Shown here piece by piece: positions 4,622 to 48,928 of a DNA stretch of 64,000 nt. The stretch's first letter is position 1, and each line of letters opens with the position of its first letter. Under the pieces are notes generated by a model. That model ran no database searches, was not told the origin of the DNA, and saw only the letters and a list, made by a program, of their open reading frames with translations. The stretch is from NCBI GenBank assembly GCA_018715125.1, contig DVMF01000056.1, positions 1 through 64,000 of the forward strand, written 5' to 3'. The position numbers and the translations under genes were made by a program. The stretch is from Candidatus Coprousia avicola (GTDB lineage: Bacteria; Actinomycetota; Coriobacteriia; Coriobacteriales; Coriobacteriaceae).

Positions 4622-6040
4622 ATGTCACGAACTCTTCCCTTCATCGGCCGTCAGCAAGAGCTCGAGACCCTCGAGCGAGAATGGAGGGAGGGCAACGGCT
4701 TTATCGTGGTGTATGGTAGGCGTCGCGTGGGTAAAACGCGCCTCATCAAGCGCTTCGCCGAAAACAAACGTGCCCTGTACTTTTTGGCTTCCAAAGAGGA
4801 TGAAGCACTCAATCGTCAGCGCTTCGCACGCGACGTGGCGACCTTTACCGGCAACGCGCTTCTTGCCGAGGCGCGCGTTGACGACTGGCGCACCATTTTC
4901 CAAGCGCTCGCCCAAGGCGCAGGTGGCGAACCGTACCTGCTTATCATTGATGAATTTCCGTACCTGGCATCTGTCAATCCCGCCTTTCCATCCATCATGC
5001 AGTACGTGTGGGACGAGATTCTGGCGGGGACGGGGGCGACGATGGTGCTCTGCGGTTCGTCGGTGAGCATGATGTACGATAAGGTTCTCGCGCACAAGAG
5101 CCCGCTCTACGGCAGGCGGACGGCGCAGCTGAGGCTTCGTCCCCTTTCGTTCCATGAGGTCTCGGATGCATTTCCCGAGGCGACGTTCGACCAAGTTATG
5201 GAGTCATATGCCCTCACCGGGGGAATCCCAAAATACCTTGAGTTTATGACTCCGGGCTCTGATATTGAGCTTGCTATCGAGCAGAATGTCCTGTCGACTT
5301 CGGGGTTTCTGTACGAAGAGCCCCTCTTTCTACTTTCTGAAGAGGGGAGAAGTTATGGCGGAGCGCTTTCGATACTTAGTGCCGTTGCCTTGGGAAACCG
5401 CAAGACGCACGAAATCGCGACGTTTTTGAGCCGCAAGGCGACGGATCTCTCGCCATACCTCAGACAGCTGATGGAGCTGGGCCTTCTCGAACGGCAGGTG
5501 CCGTTTGATGAACGGTATCCCGAGCGAAGTAAAAACGGGCTCTATCGTGTGGCGGACAACTTCATGAGGTTCTGGTTCACCTACGTGCATCCGTTTCGCG
5601 GTGAGTTGGAGATGGGAAACATGCGGCCGAGTAAGGATGCCATGTGCAGAACCCTGCGGAGCAAGTTCGTTCCCTTTGCGTTTGAGGAGGTGAGCGCCGA
5701 GGCGTTTGGTGAGCTTTGTCGAGCAGGGGAGGTTGAGCTAACGCCAAGTCGCATCGCTGGCTACTGGAATCGCAAGGGCTCGGTCGAGCTGGACGTGTGC
5801 GCGCTCGACGCAGCGGCACCCCGAGCGTTTGCAGGGGAGTGCAAATACTACGACCGCAGGCAAGTGGGCGTGGCCGAGTGGCGAGCGCTGGTGGAAAAAG
5901 CAACGCAGGTGCCGAGCTTGCGTGAGCGGGAGGTCATCTTTGGGTTGTTTTCCCATACGGGCTTTAGCGAGGAGCTCTTGGGAATTGCCCGGGCGGATGA
6001 CCGACTGGTCTTGGTGAACCACAACAAGCGCGTTGCGTAG
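4622..6040 (+). CDS. P-loop ATPase with DUF234 C-terminal domain
   Basis: A 472-residue protein. Residues 3-30 carry FIGRQQELETLE and the Walker A motif GRRRVGKTRL; Walker B is LLIIDEFPYL near residue 110, followed by the sensor-like LCGSSVSMM. This is the archaeal-type ATPase (STAND-related) group. The central winged-helix-like part is followed by a DUF234 domain with VELDVCAL and AGECKYYDR (D...ExK), resembling an Mrr/PD-(D/E)XK nuclease fold. Such proteins are common in anaerobes; nuclease or regulatory functions have been proposed but not established. It is a single-gene unit. Confidence 0.8.
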   Translation: MSRTLPFIGRQQELETLEREWREGNGFIVVYGRRRVGKTRLIKRFAENKRALYFLASKEDEALNRQRFARDVATFTGNALLAEARVDDWRTIFQALAQGAGGEPYLLIIDEFPYLASVNPAFPSIMQYVWDEILAGTGATMVLCGSSVSMMYDKVLAHKSPLYGRRTAQLRLRPLSFHEVSDAFPEATFDQVMESYALTGGIPKYLEFMTPGSDIELAIEQNVLSTSGFLYEEPLFLLSEEGRSYGGALSILSAVALGNRKTHEIATFLSRKATDLSPYLRQLMELGLLERQVPFDERYPERSKNGLYRVADNFMRFWFTYVHPFRGELEMGNMRPSKDAMCRTLRSKFVPFAFEEVSAEAFGELCRAGEVELTPSRIAGYWNRKGSVELDVCALDAAAPRAFAGECKYYDRRQVGVAEWRALVEKATQVPSLREREVIFGLFSHTGFSEELLGIARADDRLVLVNHNKRVA

Positions 6041-8604: not shown

Positions 8605-10628
8605 TGCCCGCACCCGGAAACAAGCCCAAGAACCTGCTTGCTACGCTGCGCGAGCTTCTCGCGTACCTCGGCAGGCACAAGCTGCTCTTTTTGGCGGTTG
8701 CCCTCATGGTGGCCGTCTCGGCTGTCGCCAACCTCGTCGGCACCTATATGATCCGCCCCGTGGTGGATGCGCTCGCGGCGGGCGACTACACGGCTTTTGT
8801 CAAGAACATCCTGCTTACGGCTGCCATCTACCTGGTCGGCGTGCTGGCGACCTTCGGTTACACGCAGACGATGGTGCATGCCGGGCAGAAGGTGCTCGTC
8901 GATATCCGCCGCGACCTCTTTGCCCACATCCAGACGTTGCCGCTCCGCTATTTCGATACGCGCAGCCGCGGTGACATCATGAGTTACTTCACCAACGACG
9001 TCGACACCGTGGCCGAGGCCATGAACAACAGTTTCGCCATGGTCATCCAGAGCTTCATCCAGATCGTCGGCACGCTCACCATGATCTTCATCCTTAACTG
9101 GCAGCTGTCGCTCATCGTGGTGGTGGGCTACGCCGTCATGTTTGCCTACATCTCGTTCTCCACGCGCCGGAGCCGCCGCTACTTCCAAAAGCAGCAGGCG
9201 GTCCTCGGCGAGCTCGACGGCTACGTGGAGGAGATGGTCACGGGTCAGAAGGTTGTAAAGGTATTCAACCACGAGAGCGCCAACGTGGCGACGTTTGGCG
9301 ATAAGAACGAGCAGCTGCGCGTGGCGGGCACCGGGGCGCAGGCGTATGCCGCGTCGATGATTCCCGCGGTCGTCTCGATCAGCTACGTCAACTACGCCAT
9401 CGTCGCCGCCGTGGGCGGCTGGATGGCCATCGCCGGGCTGACCGACGTGGGCGCGCTCGCGAGCTACCTCGTGTTTGTGCGCCAGACCGCCATGCCCATC
9501 AATCAGTTCACCCAGCAGTCGAACTTCCTGCTCTCAGCGCTCGCGGGCGCGGAGCGCGTCTTTGCTGCCATGCGTGAAAAGCCCGAGGTCGACGAGGGCC
9601 GCGTGGCGCTCGAGCAGACGGGTAAGGGCTCATGGGAGTGGCGCATCCCCGCAGGCTTGGGTGTTGGCGCCTGGGGCTCGCTTGTCGAGGTCGCCCCGGA
9701 GGAGGGGGCGGCGCCCCGGCCGGCCGCCGGTAGCGAGGACTTTGCCGCGGGGCGGACGGCCTCCGGGGATTCCGACCAGGCAGCGCCCGCGTTTGCGAAG
9801 CAGACCGCGCCCGCGGCGCTCGAGGCGGGCGCCCAGGTTGGGGCGACTGCGCGCGGCGTCGACGGGACAGTCCTCGCGGTGGGCTCGCTGCCGCTTTGCG
9901 GCGACGTGCGCTTCCATAACGTGAGCTTTGGGTACGAGCCCGGCCACGAGGTGCTCCACGACATCAACCTGTTTGCGAAGCCGGGGCAGACCATCGCGTT
10001 TGTGGGGTCGACGGGCGCCGGCAAGACGACCATCACCAACCTCATCAACCGCTTCTACGACGTGCAGACCGGCGAGATCACCTTCGACGGCATCAACGTC
10101 AAGAACATCGAGAAGGACTCGCTGCGCCGCTCGCTCGGCATCGTGCTGCAGGACACGCATCTGTTTACGGGCACCATCGCAGATAACATTCGCTTCGGCA
10201 AACTCGACGCCACCGACGAGGAGGTGCGCGCGGCGGCTCGGATCGCCAACGCGGATAGCTTCATCCGTCGCCTGCCGCGCGGGTACGACACCATGGTCAC
10301 CTCGGACGGCGCGAACCTCTCCCAAGGCCAGCGCCAGCTCCTCGCCATCGCGCGCGCCGCGGTGGCCGATCCGCCGGTGCTGATCTTGGACGAGGCGACC
10401 TCCTCGATCGACACGCGCACCGAGATGCTCATCAGCCGCGGCATGAAGCAGCTCATGGAGGGGCGCACCACGTTTATGATCGCGCATCGCCTCTCCACCG
10501 TGCGCGATGCCGACGCCATCATGGTGCTCGATCACGGGCGCATCATCGAGCGCGGCACGCACGAGGAGCTCTACGCGCTCGGCGGGACCTATTGGGAACT
10601 CTGCCAGGGTCTGAAGGAGCTCGACTGA
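8604..10628 (+). CDS. heterodimeric multidrug-type ABC exporter, consensus-site subunit
   Basis: A 674-residue half-transporter whose ATG overlaps the preceding stop (TGATG). The transmembrane domain covers about residues 15-320. The nucleotide-binding domain has Walker A GSTGAGKTT, signature LSQGQRQ, Walker B PVLILDEATSSID with the catalytic Glu, and an H-loop His (MIAHRLST). It therefore supplies the hydrolysing site, complementing the degenerate upstream partner. Between the two domains, about 9597-9900, lies an Ala/Gly/Pro-rich insertion of roughly 90 residues not found in ordinary family members. Export substrate is unknown; control by the upstream MarR protein points to drugs or other toxic compounds. 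Confidence 0.88.
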   Translation: MPAPGNKPKNLLATLRELLAYLGRHKLLFLAVALMVAVSAVANLVGTYMIRPVVDALAAGDYTAFVKNILLTAAIYLVGVLATFGYTQTMVHAGQKVLVDIRRDLFAHIQTLPLRYFDTRSRGDIMSYFTNDVDTVAEAMNNSFAMVIQSFIQIVGTLTMIFILNWQLSLIVVVGYAVMFAYISFSTRRSRRYFQKQQAVLGELDGYVEEMVTGQKVVKVFNHESANVATFGDKNEQLRVAGTGAQAYAASMIPAVVSISYVNYAIVAAVGGWMAIAGLTDVGALASYLVFVRQTAMPINQFTQQSNFLLSALAGAERVFAAMREKPEVDEGRVALEQTGKGSWEWRIPAGLGVGAWGSLVEVAPEEGAAPRPAAGSEDFAAGRTASGDSDQAAPAFAKQTAPAALEAGAQVGATARGVDGTVLAVGSLPLCGDVRFHNVSFGYEPGHEVLHDINLFAKPGQTIAFVGSTGAGKTTITNLINRFYDVQTGEITFDGINVKNIEKDSLRRSLGIVLQDTHLFTGTIADNIRFGKLDATDEEVRAAARIANADSFIRRLPRGYDTMVTSDGANLSQGQRQLLAIARAAVADPPVLILDEATSSIDTRTEMLISRGMKQLMEGRTTFMIAHRLSTVRDADAIMVLDHGRIIERGTHEELYALGGTYWELCQGLKELD

Positions 10629-10661
10629 CGGAGCCTCAGGGGGCTGCACTGGGGTCGCCCT

Positions 10662-10702
10662 GCCGGGGCATACGCAACCTTGCGGCTTGCGTATGCCCCG
10701 GC
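10662..10702 (+). terminator. 16-bp perfect hairpin after the exporter operon
   Basis: GCCGGGGCATACGCAA (10662-10677) and its exact reverse complement (10687-10702) are separated by a 9-base loop, 33 bp after the exporter stop. There is no T-run, so it may be a structural terminator or simply the first hairpin of the GTATAC array. Confidence 0.5.
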
Positions 10703-10705
10703 GAC

Positions 10706-11150
10706 GTATGTATACGCAACTCAGCTGGTCGTGTATACCTTTGCGGGCTGGGTATACACGACTCTCCCGTTTGCGTATACCTGACCGACTTAGGTATACG
10801 CAAATCCGCCGTATGTGTATACCTGACCGACCTTGGTAGGCCTTGGTATACACGAATCCGCAGCTTGCGTATACTTTGCCGACTTTGGTATACGCAAATC
10901 TCCCGTTTACGTATACCTAACTGACTTGTGTATACCTAACTCCGCCCTTTCAGGCACCTGCGCATATCACGCAAGCCCAGTACCTGCGGAGATGTTTTGG
11001 CGAGATAGAAGTAACCCCCTGGTTAGGTATACACAAATCACTTAGGTATACGCAACTCGGATAGTTGTGTATACCTAGATGGCGCGGCAGCGCGTGCTGC
11101 CTTGGTGGCGCCGGCGCGTGTATGCCTGGGTGAGGGCAGCACGTGTATAC
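10706..11150. repeat. GTATAC hairpin array, copy A
   Basis: By eye there are 15 GTATAC hexamers in about 445 bp. They lie in units of about 42 bp of the form AGGTATACGCAAATC-loop-TTGCGTATACCT, separated by spacers such as TGACCGACTT. Each unit can fold into a hairpin, and adjacent units can also pair across the spacer. Near 10927-11040 lies a conserved core, here in reverse orientation (TACCTGCGG ... GATAGAAGTAACCCCCT), shared with the arrays at 38.7 and 46.7 kb. No gene is supported between 10629 and 11282. Function unknown. Confidence 0.85.
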
Positions 11151-11282
11151 CTGGGTGACGGCAGCGCCCGTGCGGATAGGCTGGGCTGGGGGCCGGCGCG
11201 GCATCGCCTCCATTTGCACCCGGATAGTTCTGATGCGAGAATAAAGCGCGAAGGTGTTGGCGCGGCGCGCAGGGGAGGGCCC

Positions 11283-12380
11283 ATGACCGAAGAGCTCCAT
11301 GACGGCTTTGGACGCGGCATTACCTACCTGCGCATCGCGGTGACCGATAAGTGCAATTTCCGCTGCGTGTACTGCATGCCGTCCGAGGGCGTGGCGCCGC
11401 GGGCGCACGACGAGCTGCTCTCTGCCGAGGAGATCGCGCGCTTTGTGCGCATCGTGGCTGCCGAGGGCGTGCGCCGCGTGCGCCTTACGGGCGGCGAGCC
11501 GCTCGTGTCGCATCGCATCCTGCCGCTCATCCGCGATATCCGGGCGATTCCCCAGATCGAGGACATCTCGCTCACCACCAACGGTGCCCTGCTGCCCAAG
11601 TTGGCGCCGGCGCTCAAGGAGGCGGGGCTCGACCGGGTGAACATCTCGCTCGATACGCTCGACCCCGCGCAATTCTCCGCCATCACGCGGCTGGGGCGTC
11701 TCGCGCAGACGCTCGACGGCATCGATGCAGCGCTCGCGTTTGGCTTTGACCCCGTCAAGGTCAACTGCGTGGTGGTGCGCCGGCTCAACCAGGATGTGTT
11801 CGAGCTCGCCAAGCTGTCGCTCGAGCGTCCCGTGCACGTGCGCTTTATCGAGTACATGCCCATCGGAAACGAGGAGACGGGTGCCGACCGCGCGCACGAC
11901 GTGGCGCAGGACACCCCTTCGCGCGGATCCGCGGCGGCGGATCCCCATTGCCCCGGAGGCGTCGACGCCTCCCTGTGGGATGCAAGCGACACCGTCCCGT
12001 CCGCTGAGCTGCGCGACCGCATCTCACAGGCGGCGGTGGCAGCGGGTATCGGCGCGCTGGAGCCGGCCGGCGAGGGCACCGGCCCCGCAGGCGCCGGGCC
12101 GGCGACCTACTGGCGCTTCCCCGGTGCAGCGGGTACCGTCGGCTTCATATCCGCCATGTCCAATCACTTCTGCAGCTCGTGCAACCGTATGCGTCTTACA
12201 GCCGACGGCGCGATTCGACCGTGCCTGTTCTCAGATGCCGAGTACCGCGTGCGCGAGGCGCTGCGCTCAGGCGACGACGCGGCAGTTGCCGCTGTCTGGC
12301 ACGACGCGGTGGCGCACAAGCCGCAGGAGCACCAGGCAATCGAGGGCACCGAGCGGTTCATGTCCCAGATCGGAGGATGA
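11283..12380 (+). CDS. moaA: GTP 3',8-cyclase MoaA (molybdopterin synthesis)
   Basis: A 365-residue protein; the ATG at 11283 follows GCAGGGGAGGG, while earlier in-frame starts run into the repeat array. It catalyses the radical SAM step turning GTP into 3',8-cyclo-GTP. Motifs: first cluster CNFRCVYC (Cys24, Cys28, Cys31), TGGEPL, NISLDTL, second cluster [21 protein letters not shown], and the C-terminal double Gly (QIGG) needed for activity. Between [10 protein letters not shown] and SAELRDRI, about 11875-12005, there is an extra stretch of roughly 40 low-complexity residues. It overlaps the front of the moaC-mobB gene, giving a short molybdenum cofactor operon. Confidence 0.93.
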
Positions 12381-26919: not shown

Positions 26920-26965
26920 TTTGTTCTGTATAGCCGTCCGTCTGGGGTTTCTCCGCTTTCTGAAT

Positions 26966-27045
26966 GCCCGGAAAATCTATAACGACATTGCCGGAAAAAC
27001 TATAACGATGATGCCGGAAAAACCATAATGAGAGTGCCGGAAACC
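26966..27045 (+). repeat. 23-bp tandem repeat, three and a half units
   Basis: Units 26966-26989, 26990-27012 and 27013-27035, plus a partial at 27036-27045, follow the pattern GCCGGAAAAACTATAACG with variable ends. The repeats are A-rich in an otherwise GC-rich setting. They may be operator sites or a promoter region of a gene since lost. Confidence 0.7.
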
Positions 27046-37592: not shown

Positions 37593-38513
37593 ATGGATAT
37601 GGGTGCGACAATGACGATTATGGTGACGCAGACGGCGGCCATGTTCCTTATGATGGCCATCGGGATCGCGCTCTCGCAAGCGCGCTACCTCGACCGCGCC
37701 GGCGCCCAGCAGCTCGCGAGCATCGCGGTGTATGTGGCGACGCCCGCGGTGGTCGTCAATTCGCTCGCCACCGATTTCTCGGCGGAAAAACTCGCCAACG
37801 CCGGTATCTGCGCCGCGCTCTGCGTGGGCCTCACGTTGGGTTCGGCGGCGCTTGCCTGGCTGGTGTATCGCGACCGGCAGCGCATCTCGCAGTTTGCGAT
37901 CATGATCTCCAATATGGGCTTCATCGGCATTCCGCTGGTGCAGAGTGTGCTCGGGGAGGAGTACGTCTTCTACGTATCGGCCGCCATCGCCGCGCAGGTG
38001 CCCATCTCGTGGACGTACGGCATCTGGCTCGTCTCGCAGGACAAGAGCCTGATGTCACCGCGCAAGGTGCTGACGAACCCCTCGGTCATCGCCGTGGCGG
38101 TGGGTGTCGTTTTGTTCTTCGGCTCGGTCAGCCTAGAGGGCGTGCTCCAGGTGACGGTAGCAGACATGGGGAACCTCAACACCGGTCTTGCCATGCTGGT
38201 GCTGGGAAGCTATCTTGCCGAGACCGATTTTCGCTCCATCCTGCGCAACAAGAACGTCTATCTCACCAATGTGCTGCGCCTGCTGGTGGTGCCGCTCTTA
38301 ACCATTGCCCTGCTGGCGCCCCTGCCGATCGCCATGGAGGCAAAGCTGGTGATGCTCATTGCGTTTGCCGCGCCGTGCGGTACCACGACGGCGATGTTCT
38401 CGCAGATGTTTGGCGGTGACTACCGGTTTGGCGCGGGACTGGTCTCCATCTCCACGTTGCTCTCGATGGTGACGATGCCGGCGATGCTGTTCTTGGGGCT
38501 GCTGGCGTTTTAG
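37593..38513 (+). CDS. AEC family transporter (auxin efflux carrier type)
   Basis: A 306-residue membrane protein with about ten helices in two inverted halves. Family features: VYVATPAVVVNSLA in the first half, MISNMGFIGIPLVQSVLGE (the NxGFxGxP motif) and AAPCGTTTAMFSQMFGGD near the end. In bacteria the family exports or exchanges organic acids such as malate; substrate not determinable. The ATG at 37593 lies in a run of alternatives (ATG 37599, ATG 37608), so the true start may be a few codons later. It is convergent with the two-component operon, with GTATAC array B between them. Confidence 0.85.
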   Translation: MDMGATMTIMVTQTAAMFLMMAIGIALSQARYLDRAGAQQLASIAVYVATPAVVVNSLATDFSAEKLANAGICAALCVGLTLGSAALAWLVYRDRQRISQFAIMISNMGFIGIPLVQSVLGEEYVFYVSAAIAAQVPISWTYGIWLVSQDKSLMSPRKVLTNPSVIAVAVGVVLFFGSVSLEGVLQVTVADMGNLNTGLAMLVLGSYLAETDFRSILRNKNVYLTNVLRLLVVPLLTIALLAPLPIAMEAKLVMLIAFAAPCGTTTAMFSQMFGGDYRFGAGLVSISTLLSMVTMPAMLFLGLLAF

Positions 38514-38693
38514 CGCGCGCATCTGACGGGGCCCTCGCGGTGCGAAACGTGACGTTTGGGATGGCCACTATGGGGAGGCGCCGATGCGGGACGGGGTGAG
38601 GCCCCTATTGGCGCGGGTTCGGATCCGATAGCGCTCGAGCCGCCGCGCTCGTGTTGCCGCGCTAATGTTGCTGCGCTCGCACTGCCCTTCCTA

Positions 38694-38972
38694 CAGCTTG
38701 GTATACGCAAATCCCAAAGTTGTGTATACCAAGCTGAGTTGTGTATACCTAGCTAAGGGGGTTATTTCTATCCCCCTAAACGTTACCGCAGGTATAGAGC
38801 TTGCTGTTTCTCGAGGGGCCCTTTTTTGGCGCGAGTTAGGTATACACAAATTGCTTAGGTATACGCAGACGGGAGAGTTGTGTATACCTAGGTCGGCAAA
38901 GTATACGCAAACGGGAGAGTTGCGCATACCTAAGCGTCCCCGGTATACACAAACGGCGGATTCGCGTATACC
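38694..38972. repeat. GTATAC hairpin array, copy B
   Basis: Opens with a perfect hairpin CAGCTTGGTATAC (38694-38706) / GTATACCAAGCTG (38724-38736). It is followed by the conserved core of about 110 bp (38741-38851: GGGGGTTATTTCTATC ... AACGTTACCGCAGGTA ... GCTGTTTCTCGA ... GGCGCGAGTTAGGTATAC). Further hairpins with loops such as GACGGGAGAG end near 38972. Nine GTATAC hexamers by eye. It lies between two convergent gene ends, so no promoter role is expected. The remaining parts of 38514-39076 show no gene. Confidence 0.85.
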
Positions 38973-39076
38973 CGAGGTGACAGTCGGCAATCTCAGAGAG
39001 AGGGGTTGAGCAGAACTGGTTCCCCCTCTGCAGAATTGGACGGCAGGCTGGCGGCAGGCAGCTTTGGGCGCCCTAT

Positions 39077-40069
39077 CTAAGTCCGGTTTCCCCGTGGCTC
39101 ACCGTCCTGCGCATCCTCGGTGCGCTGCGCGTCCGCGTGCAGCTGGCATCGCAGTACCTCAACGTACGCCCGTGCCCGCTCGCCGTCACCACGCTCCACC
39201 AACATGCCGAGGGTTTGCAGGTGATTGCGCGCGTCGTGCCGGAAGCGCGCGGCGCGCTCGCCTTCGGTATTCATGGCGCGCGCGGTCTTCACATACAGCT
39301 CGAGCTGGTTTGACAGGGAGCGTGTCCGTTCGCGTTCGTGCTGAAGGCGCAGATACCGCTTGAAAGAGAGGATCGCCGCTAAGTCCGACGCCACACAGGT
39401 GCCGGCGAGAACAAGGGCGCATGCCACCCAAGGGAAAGGAATGGGCTGGGGATTGCTGCCAAAGAACAGGATGTAGAGCGCGGCGAGTGGAAAAGCCTGC
39501 GCGAGGAAGAACCAGGCGAAGCCTGACCTGGATCGCGTGCTGCGCACGGGCATCGTCCAGAAGGCAGCGGGCGATGCGGATTCGCCATCGTCTGCCCGTG
39601 CGGAGAACACCCGTTTGAGGACGGCCGCTGCTCCGAGGGCGATGGCGAAGGCAGCAAGGCGCGCCGCGAGCTCGCCGATATGGGTTGTACCCTGCTCTGA
39701 TAGCGAAAGGCCGAAGACGCTGTAGAGTGCCATGCAGGCTATCTCGGTGAGTAGCTGGGCCGTGATGAGAACGGATGCAGCCACGATGCGCGTGAGGTAG
39801 GGCGCATTCCACCACAGAAACGGGACGAGAGCGTAGTCTGCCACGTACCACGCGAGGCGTACGGGGATGCCGGGATCGGTCATCAGGATGAGGTTCCCGA
39901 CAGCCCACATGACGGCGAAGCAGATCCAATACCCCGCCCTGCTTCTGGGTGGCAGCACCCATACGGCGAGGGCGTGGTAGAGGAGGTCGAACAGAAAGTA
40001 CTTGATCAGTAGGTTCAATGCGCCGATTACCGGGGCAAGGCGGTCGGCGATGAGCGGGAGCATGTCCAT
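39077..40069 (-). CDS. membrane protein with histidine-kinase DHp helices but no ATPase domain (B)
   Basis: A 330-residue protein. Residues 10-235 hold about six or seven membrane helices; then a coiled-coil linker (YLRLQHERERTRSLSNQLELYVKTAR) leads to ERAARFRHDARNHLQTLGML, the phospho-acceptor His motif (RHDxxNH) of AgrC/LytS-type kinases. The chain ends about 40 residues later, with no N, G1 or G2 boxes of a GHKL ATPase. It begins at the base after the stop of the ATPase-bearing gene and is the last gene of a four-gene minus-strand operon. It probably works as the sensor/acceptor half of a split kinase. Confidence 0.7.
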   Translation of the reverse strand: MDMLPLIADRLAPVIGALNLLIKYFLFDLLYHALAVWVLPPRSRAGYWICFAVMWAVGNLILMTDPGIPVRLAWYVADYALVPFLWWNAPYLTRIVAASVLITAQLLTEIACMALYSVFGLSLSEQGTTHIGELAARLAAFAIALGAAAVLKRVFSARADDGESASPAAFWTMPVRSTRSRSGFAWFFLAQAFPLAALYILFFGSNPQPIPFPWVACALVLAGTCVASDLAAILSFKRYLRLQHERERTRSLSNQLELYVKTARAMNTEGERAARFRHDARNHLQTLGMLVERGDGERARAYVEVLRCQLHADAQRTEDAQDGEPRGNRT

Positions 40070-44877: not shown

Positions 44878-46610
44878 AGGAGCTGTCAGAGGTGCTTGAG
44901 GATTGGGAGGCCGTCATCGGCCTCGAGATCCATACCGAGCTCACGGCGCTCGACACCAAGATGTTCTGCAATTGCAAGCTCACGCATGATGACGAGCCCA
45001 ACACGCACGTCTGCCCGGTGTGCCTGGGGCTCCCCGGCGCGCTGCCCGTGCCTAATCGCCGCGCGATCGAGAGCATCGTCAAGGCGGGTATCGCCACCAA
45101 CTGCGAGATCCAGAAGCACTCGATGTTCTACCGGAAGCACTACTTCTATCCGGATATGGCCAAGAATTTCCAGACCACGCAGGGGCCCGTCGCCTTCTGC
45201 ATGCACGGTCACTTGGACCTCGAGGTCACGGGCCGTGGCGCGGCCGAGCGGCCCGCCTGCGCCTTTGGCGAGGCGGAGGCCGAGAGCCTGGCGTCGGCAT
45301 CGGCCGGCGCGGTTGGCCTCTCCGCCGATCTCTCCCGGCGCGCCGACAGTCAGCCTGCGGGTGCGGGAGACGCCTGTGGCGCGACTGGGGCAGACGCCTC
45401 TGCGGGTGCGACGGCGCTCGCCGGGCTCTCCGCCTATGACACGGCGGCGGGAGCCGGCCCGGTGCGCCACGAGGACGGTTCCTACACGGTCCCCATCCGC
45501 ATCCTGCGCATCCATATGGAGGAGGACGCTGCCAAGATGGTGCACGTGGGCGGCGAGGAGGGCCGCATCGGCGGCGCCGCTGAGTCGCTCATCGACTACA
45601 ACCGCTGCGGCACGCCGCTCATCGAACTCGTTACCGAGCCCGATCTTCGCACCCCCGAGGAGGCGCGCCTCTTTATGGAGAAGCTCCGCCGCATCTTTGT
45701 GACGCTCGGCATCTCCGACTGCTCCATGGAGAAGGGCTCCATGCGCTGCGACGGCAACGTGAGCCTGCGCCGTCGCGGCGAGCGCACCCTCGGCACCAAG
45801 ACCGAGCTCAAGAACCTCAACTCCTTCAAGGCCCTGCACGACGGCCTCGCCTATGAGATCTGCCGCCAGGCCGAGGTGCTCGAGGAGGGCGGCGAGATCT
45901 ATCAGGAGACGCGCCACTGGGAGCCCTCCCGCAAGCGCACGGTCGTCATGCGCACGAAGGAGACGGCGGACGACTACCGGTTCTTCCCCGACCCGGACCT
46001 CGCCCCCTTCGACCTCACCGACGAATTCATCGCGCATTGCGCCGCCGAGATTCCCGAGCTGCCGGATGCCAAGCGCGACCGCTTCGAGCGTGATTTTGGC
46101 ATCAAGCGCGCCGATGCCGAGCAGCTGGCGGGCGATCCCGCCTTGGCGGCGTTCTTCGAGGCTGCGGCAGCGGGGCTTTCCGGCAAGGCCGCCCAGACGG
46201 TGGCGAATCTCATCGTCAACGAGCTCATGGGTTACCTCAACGCCGCCGGGGCAGACGTGACCCTCGAGACGTGCGGCATCGCGCCGGCGCAGGTCGCGTC
46301 GCTCGCGGGGTTGCTGGCCGAGGACGCCATCAGCTCCAACCAGGGTCACGAGGTCTTCCTCCTGATGGCGCAGATGGGCGACGACCCTGCCAAGATCGTG
46401 GACGAGCGGGGCATGCGCCAGGTGAGCGACACCGCCGCGCTGCAACCGATTGTGGATGCGGTGCTCGCGCGCTGCACCGATCAGGCGCAGCAGTACCGCG
46501 ACGGCAACCAGAAGGTGATCGGCTTTTTGGTGGGCCAGTGCATGCGCGAGAGCCGCGGCCAGGGCAACCCCAAGCTCTTTAACGAGCTGTTGCGCGCCTC
46601 GCTCTCCTAA
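44874..46610 (+). CDS. gatB: Asp-tRNA(Asn)/Glu-tRNA(Gln) amidotransferase subunit B
   Basis: A 578-residue protein, longer than the usual 470-500. The kinase-like cradle has VIGLEIHTEL, zinc-site cysteines FCNCKL and HVCPVCLGLPGALPV, MFYRKHYFYPDMAKNFQ, RIHMEEDAAK and SLIDYNRCGTPLIELVTEP; the C-terminal YqeY tail domain includes ISSNQGHEVFLLM. Extra length comes from an Ala/Gly/Ser-rich insert of about 77 residues (45235-45465) between strands that normally adjoin. It activates the misacylated tRNA and transfers ammonia from GatA. Confidence 0.95.
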   Translation: MKELSEVLEDWEAVIGLEIHTELTALDTKMFCNCKLTHDDEPNTHVCPVCLGLPGALPVPNRRAIESIVKAGIATNCEIQKHSMFYRKHYFYPDMAKNFQTTQGPVAFCMHGHLDLEVTGRGAAERPACAFGEAEAESLASASAGAVGLSADLSRRADSQPAGAGDACGATGADASAGATALAGLSAYDTAAGAGPVRHEDGSYTVPIRILRIHMEEDAAKMVHVGGEEGRIGGAAESLIDYNRCGTPLIELVTEPDLRTPEEARLFMEKLRRIFVTLGISDCSMEKGSMRCDGNVSLRRRGERTLGTKTELKNLNSFKALHDGLAYEICRQAEVLEEGGEIYQETRHWEPSRKRTVVMRTKETADDYRFFPDPDLAPFDLTDEFIAHCAAEIPELPDAKRDRFERDFGIKRADAEQLAGDPALAAFFEAAAAGLSGKAAQTVANLIVNELMGYLNAAGADVTLETCGIAPAQVASLAGLLAEDAISSNQGHEVFLLMAQMGDDPAKIVDERGMRQVSDTAALQPIVDAVLARCTDQAQQYRDGNQKVIGFLVGQCMRESRGQGNPKLFNELLRASLS

Positions 46611-46693
46611 GCGTCCCGCGCGCTCTGTGCGCTGATCTTTGTTGCGGTCCGCACCCCGCCCTACGGGTCCGGCTGCCGGCAGCGACGCTTCTC

Positions 46694-47058
46694 TCGGCTG
46701 GGTATACGCAAACGCTCGAGTTGTGTATACCCAGCCGACTTGTGTATACCTAACGAGGGGGTTATTTCTATCCTGCATTAACGTTACCGCAGGTACAGAG
46801 ATCGCTGTTTCTCGACAGGCTCTATTTAGGCGCGAGTTAGGTATACACAAATCAGATAGGTATACGTGAACCGAGGATTTGCGTACACCTAAGTTGGTCA
46901 GGCATACGCGGTTTTATGTATACCAAGGTCGGTCAGGTATACACAAATCGGGCAGCTGCGTATACCTAAGTCGGTCAGGTATACGCAAATCAACAAGTTG
47001 CGTATACCTAGGGCAGAGACGTATACGCACATCGGGAAGTTGCGTATACCTGGGCCGG
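46694..47058. repeat. GTATAC hairpin array, copy C
   Basis: Opens with a perfect 14-bp hairpin TCGGCTGGGTATAC (46694-46707) / GTATACCCAGCCGA (46725-46738), then the conserved core (46742-46852) that is nearly identical to copy B over TAACGTTACCGCAGGTA and GGCGCGAGTTAGGTATAC. Units of about 42 bp follow (hairpins with spacers like AGTCGGTCAGG) to about 47058. Twelve GTATAC hexamers by eye. It fills most of the 707-bp gap between gatB and the peptide importer; 47059-47217 shows no gene. Confidence 0.85.
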
Positions 47059-47217
47059 GGGAGCTCCCGGATCAGGGGCGGAGCTTGCGCCGAAGGCGTG
47101 ATCCCCTCCGCGGCCCTGAATGGGGCCCGCCCCGCAGCGCCCCCGTCGTCCCACCACGCCCCTCAACACCCCGACGGCCCGCCCGCCTGTGTTTCAGAAT
47201 CGTTTCGAGCCCATATC

Positions 47218-47237
47218 CACTTTATTTCAGTAAAGTG
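47218..47237. promoter_or_regulatory. inverted repeat upstream of the peptide ABC importer
   Basis: CACTTTA (47218-47224) and TAAAGTG (47231-47237) form a perfect palindrome with a 6-base spacer in an AT-rich patch 81 bp before the binding-protein start. This is a plausible operator or promoter-linked site. Confidence 0.45.
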
Positions 47238-47317
47238 CAATTAGGGGTTTGCAGCCCAAGGTGACACTCCATCGAGCTAAAGTACCTCCTACCTCGAACA
47301 GATGGAAGGAGTTACTC

Positions 47318-48928
47318 ATGTTCATGGCAGATATTTCTCGTAGGCGTTTTGTACAGGCGTTTGGCGCCGTCGCAGCCACGAGCTCGTTTGCGCTCGCCGG
47401 CTGCGGTGCCCAGCGCGCGAGCGAGGCGGACGGCAGCGCTGCGGCAGGCGGCACGGCCGATACCATCACCTTCGCCCAGGGTGCCGACCCCCGCGGTCTC
47501 GACCCCGCGTACGTTGACGACGGCGAGTCCGCAAAGATCATGTGCAACATCTACGACACGCTGCTTCGCTATGACACGGAGACCTGCGACATCGTACCCG
47601 GCCTGGCCGAGCTGCCCGATGTCTCCGACGACGGCCTCACCTACACCTTCACGCTGCAGGGGGGCGTCAAGTTCCACGACGGCACCGACTGCAACGCCGA
47701 GGCGGTCATGACCTCCATCGTCCGCCAGCTCGAGCCCGAGCGCACCGAGGACATGCCCTACGCCTCCTTCGTCTTTGGTTCTGAGGCGTCCAACAGCGGC
47801 GTCGCCTCCGTCGAGGCGCCCGATGACACCACGCTCGTCATCACCCTGCGCGCCGCATCCACCCCGTTCATCAAGAACATGGCGATGGCGCTCGCCGCGC
47901 CCGTGGTGGCGCCGTCCGCCATCGAGGCCGGCGACTCCAACGAGAACCCCATCGGTTCGGGCCCCTACAAGTTCGTCTCCTGGAACAAGGGCGAGAACGT
48001 CGTGCTCGAGGCCAACGAGGACTACTGGGATGCCGACCACATGCCGCAGACCAAGAACGTCATCTTCCGCTTCATCGCCGAGAACTCGAGCCGCGTGACC
48101 GCCCTCAACAACGGCGAGGTCGACATCATCGATGGCATCGACGCCTCCGTGGTGCCCACCATCACCGACGCGGGCAACGAGCTCTTCGAAGAGGACGGCA
48201 TGAACATCAACTACATGGCGTTCCGTAACGACGAGGGTGCGTTCTCCACGCTCGAGGCGCGCCGCGCGTTCTGCCAGGCGGTGAATGTCGAGGAGATGGT
48301 CGAGAGCCTCTACGGCGATTACGCCGGCGTCGCGACCTCCGTCATGCCGCTGTGGATGGCCCCCTACGATGAGGACATCCAGCAGACCGCCTACGATCCC
48401 GAGACCGCCAAGGCGGCGTTTGCCGAGCTCGGCATCACGAGCTGCACCATGCTCACCTACACCAACCCGCGTCCCTACAACTCCATCGGCGGCCAGGCGC
48501 TCGCCGAGGCGATCCAGGGCTACCTGGCCGACGCCGGCGTTGACATGGAGATCGTCTCCTACGACTGGACGACCTACCAGACCAAGATCGAGACCGACGC
48601 CTTCGACTGCTGCCTCTACGGCTGGGTGGGCGACAACGGCGACCCGGACAACTTCATGAACCTGCTCGCCGACGAGAACGTCTCTATGAACGTCGGCCGC
48701 TATCGCAGCGATGCGTACAACGCCCTCATCCAGCAGGGCTTGGCCACGCCCGAGGGCGACGAGCGCGACAACATCTACAAGCAGTGCGAGCAGATGGTCG
48801 CCGATGAGATGCCCTGGATGCTCATCAGCCACTCGAAGAACCTCGCGGGCTACAGCCCCAAGGTCAAGGGCTTCTACTATCACCCGACCGGCGTCGTGCA
48901 CCTGGAGGGCGTCACGAAGGAGGCGTAG
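47318..48928 (+). CDS. peptide/nickel ABC transporter substrate-binding lipoprotein (SBP_bac_5)
   Basis: A 536-residue protein. The N-terminus has RRRF, a hydrophobic stretch and the lipobox LAGC (Cys near residue 27), so it is a lipoprotein, perhaps exported by the Tat route in view of the RR. The mature part matches the DppA/OppA family: ADPRGLDPAYVDDG, ANIYDTL-like CNIYDTLLRY, LTYTFTLQGGVKFHDG and NPIGSGPYKFVSW. GGAAGGAG precedes the ATG at 47318. It captures peptides outside the membrane for the permease encoded next; a hairpin follows the gene, which would favour higher expression of the binding protein. Confidence 0.92.
   Translation: MFMADISRRRFVQAFGAVAATSSFALAGCGAQRASEADGSAAAGGTADTITFAQGADPRGLDPAYVDDGESAKIMCNIYDTLLRYDTETCDIVPGLAELPDVSDDGLTYTFTLQGGVKFHDGTDCNAEAVMTSIVRQLEPERTEDMPYASFVFGSEASNSGVASVEAPDDTTLVITLRAASTPFIKNMAMALAAPVVAPSAIEAGDSNENPIGSGPYKFVSWNKGENVVLEANEDYWDADHMPQTKNVIFRFIAENSSRVTALNNGEVDIIDGIDASVVPTITDAGNELFEEDGMNINYMAFRNDEGAFSTLEARRAFCQAVNVEEMVESLYGDYAGVATSVMPLWMAPYDEDIQQTAYDPETAKAAFAELGITSCTMLTYTNPRPYNSIGGQALAEAIQGYLADAGVDMEIVSYDWTTYQTKIETDAFDCCLYGWVGDNGDPDNFMNLLADENVSMNVGRYRSDAYNALIQQGLATPEGDERDNIYKQCEQMVADEMPWMLISHSKNLAGYSPKVKGFYYHPTGVVHLEGVTKEA

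Follow-up and report, generated by a model that had tools for sequence, protein, structure and literature searches.

Iterons and parS/parC-type arrays are sets of sites that have a direction, keep helical phase and flank a conserved centre. The lox and dif core sites of tyrosine recombinases have arms of about 13 bp and an asymmetric middle of 7-9 bp, and heterotypic arms occur at sites bound by two different recombinases. The BOX-type repeats of Streptococcus are modular intergenic elements in which one module recurs a variable number of times, while the attC sites of integrons carry outer RYYYAAC ... GTTRRRY boxes, with inner boxes paired beside them in one long imperfect hairpin. In REP/BIME repeats one foot of the palindrome bears a tetranucleotide, GTAG or CGTC (PMC3733652, PMC8266576), and REPs attract IS elements (PMC1525189).

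The repeat analysed here lies in a 64,000-nt stretch of the genome of Candidatus Coprousia avicola (the window). It shares with the iterons and the parS/parC-type arrays its phased, directional sites and its conserved centre, but it has many chromosomal copies and no adjacent partner gene, and its binding protein is a putative one. As in BOX, the number of modules varies from one intergenic site to another, but here the modules stand outside a constant centre, on both of its sides and directed outward. The consensus ends of the centre, ACCTAAC ... GTTAGGT, agree with the outer-box pattern of attC; however, its pairing stops after a 15-bp end repeat, and the genome has no integron integrase, none of its three PF00589 proteins scoring above the integrase_gron cut-off. 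By location and IS hits, the nearest known kind is the REP/BIME/REPIN class with its RAYT transposase (TnpAREP), likewise made of intergenic quasi-palindromic arrays at gene 3′ ends that are targets of IS elements; the present arrays fail its defining tests. They lack the GTAG/CGTC tag, possess a conserved core and a fixed 23/19 geometry, and occur in a genome whose RAYT goes with another repeat.

The initial annotation of this DNA had recognised no known family, and none was matched here either. Rfam searches of the window and eight array loci gave no match on the arrays, a tmRNA being the sole match in the window; phage and plasmid records gave no match to array A in distant blastn searches; and viral contigs yielded zero matches to the hairpin pattern and zero to the core pattern. 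The repeat is not described in the accessible parts of the non-subscription literature searched, including PMC12306157, PMC1525189, PMC8266576 and PMC3733652.

Phased units surround a conserved, directional core

The window contains 41 GTATAC hexamers, against 4.1 expected and a maximum of 9 over 100 shuffles: 15 in array A (10710-11150), 9 in array B (38701-38971), 12 in array C (46702-47049) and 5 elsewhere. A recount and TRF reproduced the hexamer tallies, the coordinates and the 42-bp period given for the three sites in the initial annotation, and all three are intergenic, as it had stated, within the intervals 10628-11283 (A), 38513-39077 (B) and 46610-47249/47318 (C). Its end of array A, 11150, stands, but its start, 10706, was moved to about 10660; the true start had been missed because the outermost hairpin of A carries GCATAC/GTATGC and not GTATAC. 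The stems that it had called perfect were found at their full lengths of 16 bp beside A (10667-10697 plus flanks), 13 bp at the start of B and 14 bp at the start of C, but in B and C a G.T pair at R interrupts them. The anatomy, however, differs from the one it had pictured: it overlooked the conserved core in each array, for which a sequence model (R1) was used in genome searches. The features are:

10660..11150, no strand assigned, array A, with an ABC-transporter gene on one side and moaA on the other
10925..11037, minus strand, core of A including its two orphan half-sites (R1 match, E 6.3e-29)
11004..11019, minus strand, first conserved core box of A, GGGGGTTACTTCTATC
38694..38972, no strand assigned, array B, flanked by a convergent gene and a gene with weak similarity to auxin efflux carriers
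38738..38850, plus strand, core of B (R1 match, E 8.2e-25)
38757..38772, plus strand, first conserved core box of B
46694..47058, no strand assigned, array C, downstream of gatB
46739..46851, plus strand, core of C (R1 match, E 1.5e-27)
46759..46795, plus strand, both conserved core boxes of C, spaced as usual

A complete array reads (><)n < core > (><)m, where > is the half-site AGGTATACRCAA and < is its reverse. In array A, for example, the outermost hairpin (10667-10697) and more units on the left are followed by the core and, on the right, by one unit and degenerate half-sites; extra units are mostly confined to one side of the core. The unit, 33 bp long, is made of two inverted half-sites, GGTATACRCAA, of 11-13 bp around an asymmetric middle of 7-9 bp, and is not a true palindrome. 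The 9-bp middle has a consensus of about A-Y-S-G-G-R-G-A-K and keeps its length whatever its sequence. Of 68 neighbouring half-site pairs that face inward, as within a unit, 66 have their hexamer starts 23 bp apart, and the linkers between units are mostly 19 bp; four are lengthened, to 29, 29, 29 and 39 bp, two of these coming from a single array. Since the longer linkers equal 19 bp plus 10 or 20 bp, the helical phase is kept, and both spacing and phase are those of a phased protein-binding array. A coding role (42 bp being 14 codons, with open reading frames through the arrays) seems unlikely, as the frame is lost at linkers of 18 and 29 bp and across the 97-bp core.

The core consists of two orphan half-sites, 97 bp apart from GTATAC to GTATAC (96 bp once), enclosing two boxes that are conserved in A, B and C (GGGGGTTAYTTCTATC and CCGCAGGTA; the core of A is on the minus strand). 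Allowing up to three mismatches, the consensus boxes GGGGGTTAYTTCTATC and CCGCAGGTACAGRGCTTGC lie at a constant distance in 10/11 cores of the window's genome (G000; 2.42 Mb, 93 contigs) and in 2/2 cores of its near twin, Collinsella sp. An268 (G002), the exception being B, where the distance is one base shorter. Two distinct boxes at a fixed distance give the core a direction. The core-bounding half-sites read ACAA in all 8 G000 cores scored, and the ends of the core form near-perfect 15-bp inverted repeats.

Unit orientation follows the side of the core. In a leave-one-array-out comparison, the middle consensus pointed outward, whichever arm it lay on, in 45/54 units (30/33 downstream and 15/21 upstream; sign test P 7e-7, which, like the other geometry and constraint statistics given here, is post hoc and drawn from few arrays). 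The two arms of a unit also tend to differ at R, as they do in 39 of 55 G000 units against 27-28 expected (P below 0.001, with shuffling over all units as well as array by array). No such preference was seen between half-sites that face one another over a linker (14/34), which indicates that two half-sites facing inward form the functional unit.

Constraint in a shared array and a putative protein-binding platform

R1 detected 11 cores in G000, and hairpin searches combined with flank reading brought the number of arrays to 12: A, B and C of the window and those on contigs C5, C17, C41+C49, C42, C44, C64, C65, C73 and C78. Among the genomes of the family, R1 found the core in 2/65, G000 and An268, with none among the 63 others, and the inner core boxes were found in the same 2 of 64. 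The hairpin occurs in 4/395 genomes of the order and is abundant in the same two alone (54 in G000, 10 in An268); the remaining two genomes have a single match each, about chance level by estimate. The proposal of a lineage-specific repeat family is borne out by this distribution. The 5 arrays and 2 cores of An268 all lie at places shared with G000 (An268/G000 contigs C3/C65, C8/C64, C9/C17, C12/C73 and C21/C42), with flanks 90-97% identical.

Sequence changes between the two genomes were compared in the shared arrays. In the intact C42/C21 array, they numbered 2/132 in half-sites, 1/84 in the core interior, 12/101 in spacers and linkers and 56/1010 in the flanks. Half-sites differed from spacers with P 0.0013, and half-sites plus core from flanks with P 0.008; the half-sites alone against flanks gave P 0.055 and the core alone P 0.12. 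The C65/C3 array had changes at 4/44 positions of half-sites, 11/85 of the core, 68/549 of the flanks and 0/20 of the spacers. With the two arrays pooled, half-sites (6/176) and spacers (12/121) still differed (P 0.026). Showing no constraint, C65/C3 is read as a probably decayed array.

Strict spacing, phase, direction, heterotypic pairs, constrained half-sites and freer spacers are expected of a cooperative array of protein sites on double-stranded DNA. Our preferred reading, to which we give an even chance, is that the arrays are a multi-copy non-coding double-stranded DNA platform for the cooperative binding of a sequence-specific protein; among the three roles offered in the initial annotation, a protein-binding array is the best supported, by the non-paired arms, the spacing, the constraint and the difference at R. 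One 33-bp unit would be bound by a dimer or by paired subunits, and successive units would lie on one face of the helix, 42 bp being about four turns. The core, with its orphan half-sites and two boxes, would be where the complex loads or nucleates before extending outward along both arms; that it starts at the core is suggested by the outward direction on both sides. The arms might grow by tandem duplication of units, as inferred from the likeness of neighbouring units, and shrink by deletion. The unconstrained C65/C3 array and the extended outer hairpins described below count against the platform.

Whichever reading holds, the constant centre, the bilateral outward arms and the phased heterotypic sites make the arrays a searchable family in Collinsella, a common gut genus, and array-rich G000 and array-poor An268 offer a ready natural comparison. 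If a protein spreads on the arrays, they would represent a new multi-site chromosome-marking system; if none does, they would be an example of a strongly organised non-coding palindromic repeat without an obvious transposase.

Array loss and the passive-repeat explanation

At three of the shared places (An268 C8, C9 and C12) the core is gone from An268 and one or two units are left; the junctions are internal deletions, of which one keeps the unit register and two break it. For seven of the G000 arrays, no counterpart was present at the orthologous places read in An268 (a single side was readable for C44, for B and for the far side of C78). At two of these, C5 and C41/C49, the difference between the G000 and An268 alleles includes array-free flank and is bounded by locus-specific direct repeats of 6-7 bp, so that deletion in An268 fits better than insertion in G000, a tentative polarity drawn from these two genomes. 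The initial annotation had suggested comparing loci with and without an insertion; at C5 and C41/C49 no clean insertion with target duplication was found. In the G000/An268 comparison, array loss is thus likely or shown, and no gain was seen.

These losses also bear on a second explanation, a passive palindromic repeat of MITE or satellite type, whose core with terminal inverted half-sites was moved by a transposase since lost and which, now spread and duplicated, has no function. The near-perfect 15-bp inverted repeats bounding the core, the 12 scattered intergenic copies in G000, the patchy distribution, the frequent decay in An268 and the unconstrained C65/C3 array all suit it, and the restriction to two close genomes is equally compatible with it. 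We nonetheless regard it as unlikely: the outer ends differ between loci, no element-owned target duplication was found, the two G000/An268 boundaries are locus-specific short direct repeats outside array-free flank, as in deletions, and the geometry and the constraint in C42/C21 are unexpected for junk. The combination that marks a MITE (constant ends carrying terminal inverted repeats, plus a target duplication) was not found at the two G000/An268 loci read, nor was an autonomous partner with matching ends seen in the stretches read.

Tyrosine-recombinase sites

The lengths of arms and spacer, the asymmetric middle, the heterotypic arms and the variable number of units would also agree with tandem core sites of a tyrosine recombinase in 13-7-13 lox-type geometry, at which opposed arms could invert the core or alter the unit number. 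The likeness to lox and dif lies in the arm and middle lengths; here, in contrast, the sites form tandem arrays without cargo, and no dedicated recombinase was found. G000 encodes three PF00589 proteins: two are Xer-type and have counterparts throughout the genus, and the third, an integrase, has no evident counterpart in An268. No such gene tracks the arrays, the two Xer-type proteins being the only ones common to both array genomes and present in relatives too. Moreover, the orientation of the core is identical at both shared core loci, and not every deletion junction in An268 falls in unit register. This explanation is accordingly improbable.

Hairpin pairing and the structured-RNA explanation

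If the hairpins functioned in RNA or single-stranded DNA, their paired positions should covary. Stem pairing is maintained on neither strand: the match between arms at variable positions 9, 13, 15 and 16 was at or below chance in comparison with shuffled arms, A.C mismatches at R were about equal by strand (17 outward and 18 inward, of 54 units), and none of 26 core pairs was altered on both sides. The structured RNA that the initial annotation had considered is therefore unlikely, and the arrays have no Rfam match.

The outermost units behave somewhat differently. The stems of several of those on the gene 3′-end side are extended by 4-9 bp (for end units overall against inner units the extension was not significant, P 0.066), and two outer hairpins of G000, in A and on contig C78, carry changes in both arms that preserve pairing. 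Such hairpins at gene 3′ ends may act as terminators, and their extension and compensation suit a transcript-level role at those places. In its full form, the RNA explanation holds that transcription proceeds outward from the core and that the loops capture an RNA-binding protein, or that the outer hairpins end the upstream transcript. The loops of the downstream arm carry GGA in 23/33 cases and TCC in none, but this count is not above that of column shuffles (P 0.11), and inner units lose the R pairing on both strands about equally; with the outer stems in its favour, we still consider it very improbable. A CsrA-sponge-like RNA was rejected, the frequent GGA loops being within column composition and pairing not being maintained.

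IS damage, RAYT genes and the REP/BIME explanation

IS elements struck 3/12 arrays of G000. In C5 the array is interrupted by an IS3-family element. A second such element divides one array between C41 and C49, the flanks of which adjoin in An268, and C78 terminates in the IS end that also opens C49. The IS3-family transposases within arrays are:

L068:6598-8019, IS3-family transposase
L070:5553-6575, IS3-family transposase

A RAYT-type gene, for which the initial annotation had advised looking, is present in G000, and its protein matches REP_Tyr_transpos below the curated cut-off (61.5 vs 80). PF01797 matches occur in 7/9 genomes of the genus and cores in 2/9. Five RAYT loci were read (L137-L140 and L142, from G007, G000, G001, G006 and G003). 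GGGGACGGG repeats stand inverted on both sides of the gene in 4/5 of them and on one side in L138, where the locus is cut short, and GTATAC occurs at 0/5. The RAYT thus seems to have another partner, and the GGGGACGGG repeats are probably the cognate REP family of the genus's RAYT. The GGGGACGGG nonamer is also present in the window at 5026, 8467, 8503 and 35986. The suggested RAYT-dependent mobility of the arrays finds no support: a RAYT is found in most of the genus, array-free relatives included, without following the distribution of the arrays, the repeats beside it are of another kind, and it was rejected as the mobiliser of the arrays.

An origin as REP/BIME-type repeats, single-stranded hairpins that a RAYT transposase recognises and moves, is the least probable explanation of all, despite the intergenic quasi-palindromes with mismatched stems arrayed after gene 3′ ends, the RAYT-type gene in G000 and the three arrays broken by IS3-type insertions, as there is no fixed tag (GTAG in 1/66 and CGTC in 4/66 units, within 10 bp of the feet), no RAYT gene flanked by the array repeat at the five loci read, and a presence of RAYT that does not follow that of the repeat.

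Candidate binding proteins and related sites in the genus

A search of 827,363 G000 bases for isolated half-sites gave 12, all with two mismatches and none convincing, and no binding-protein candidate emerged from it. A gene on contig C78, presumably of GntR type, has an isolated GGGTATACACAAT in its promoter and was rejected as the array-binding factor, the promoter being largely the same in array-free G003.

G008 is a more remote member of the genus, with about 81% identity across gatB and the neighbour of that gene. It carries a hairpin, GGCATACACAA-9-TTTGTGTATGCC, with 23-bp spacing, 187 bp after gatB, the place of array C in G000. Its contig C17 has a second array-like site with the half-site SCATACAYAATT and spacings of 22, 19 and 23 bp. 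The G008 core gave no R1 match, and its local alignment to the G000 core scored 31 against a shuffle maximum of 35. The G008 sites are a lead towards a possible relation to the G000 arrays, short of established core homology. Because of the 23-bp-spaced hairpin after gatB and the second site with SCATACAYAATT, one may go beyond the double-stranded platform and imagine a new class of chromosomal nucleation element, in which the core would load a heterotypic protein pair that spreads on the phased arms and the recognition sequence would have been re-invented between Collinsella species; we consider this conceivable but doubtful.

Other features were also observed. In relatives such as An268 (L126), the interval between gatB and the next gene holds a gene, which we take to encode a 4-alpha-glucanotransferase, and in G000 it holds array C instead (window 46610-47318). 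In G001 (L133), another palindromic array, with TTGACAATCTGC-type half-sites, lies downstream of gatB at the place of array C, and G006 (L130) has a TATTCAACAATCT ... AGATTGTTGAATA pair downstream of gatB. At locus A, between the ABC gene and moaA, G003 (L115) and G006 (L118) carry a long imperfect palindrome around GCTTGCGTACTTAGTACGC, and the G008 locus (L120) has a MITE-like element with terminal inverted repeats of about 40 bp (GTGTGCARTTSGGRGCTTAGTGAGTGCGG). Finally, the window contains at 26963-27043 a 23-bp tandem repeat of 3.5 copies, which is not related to the arrays.
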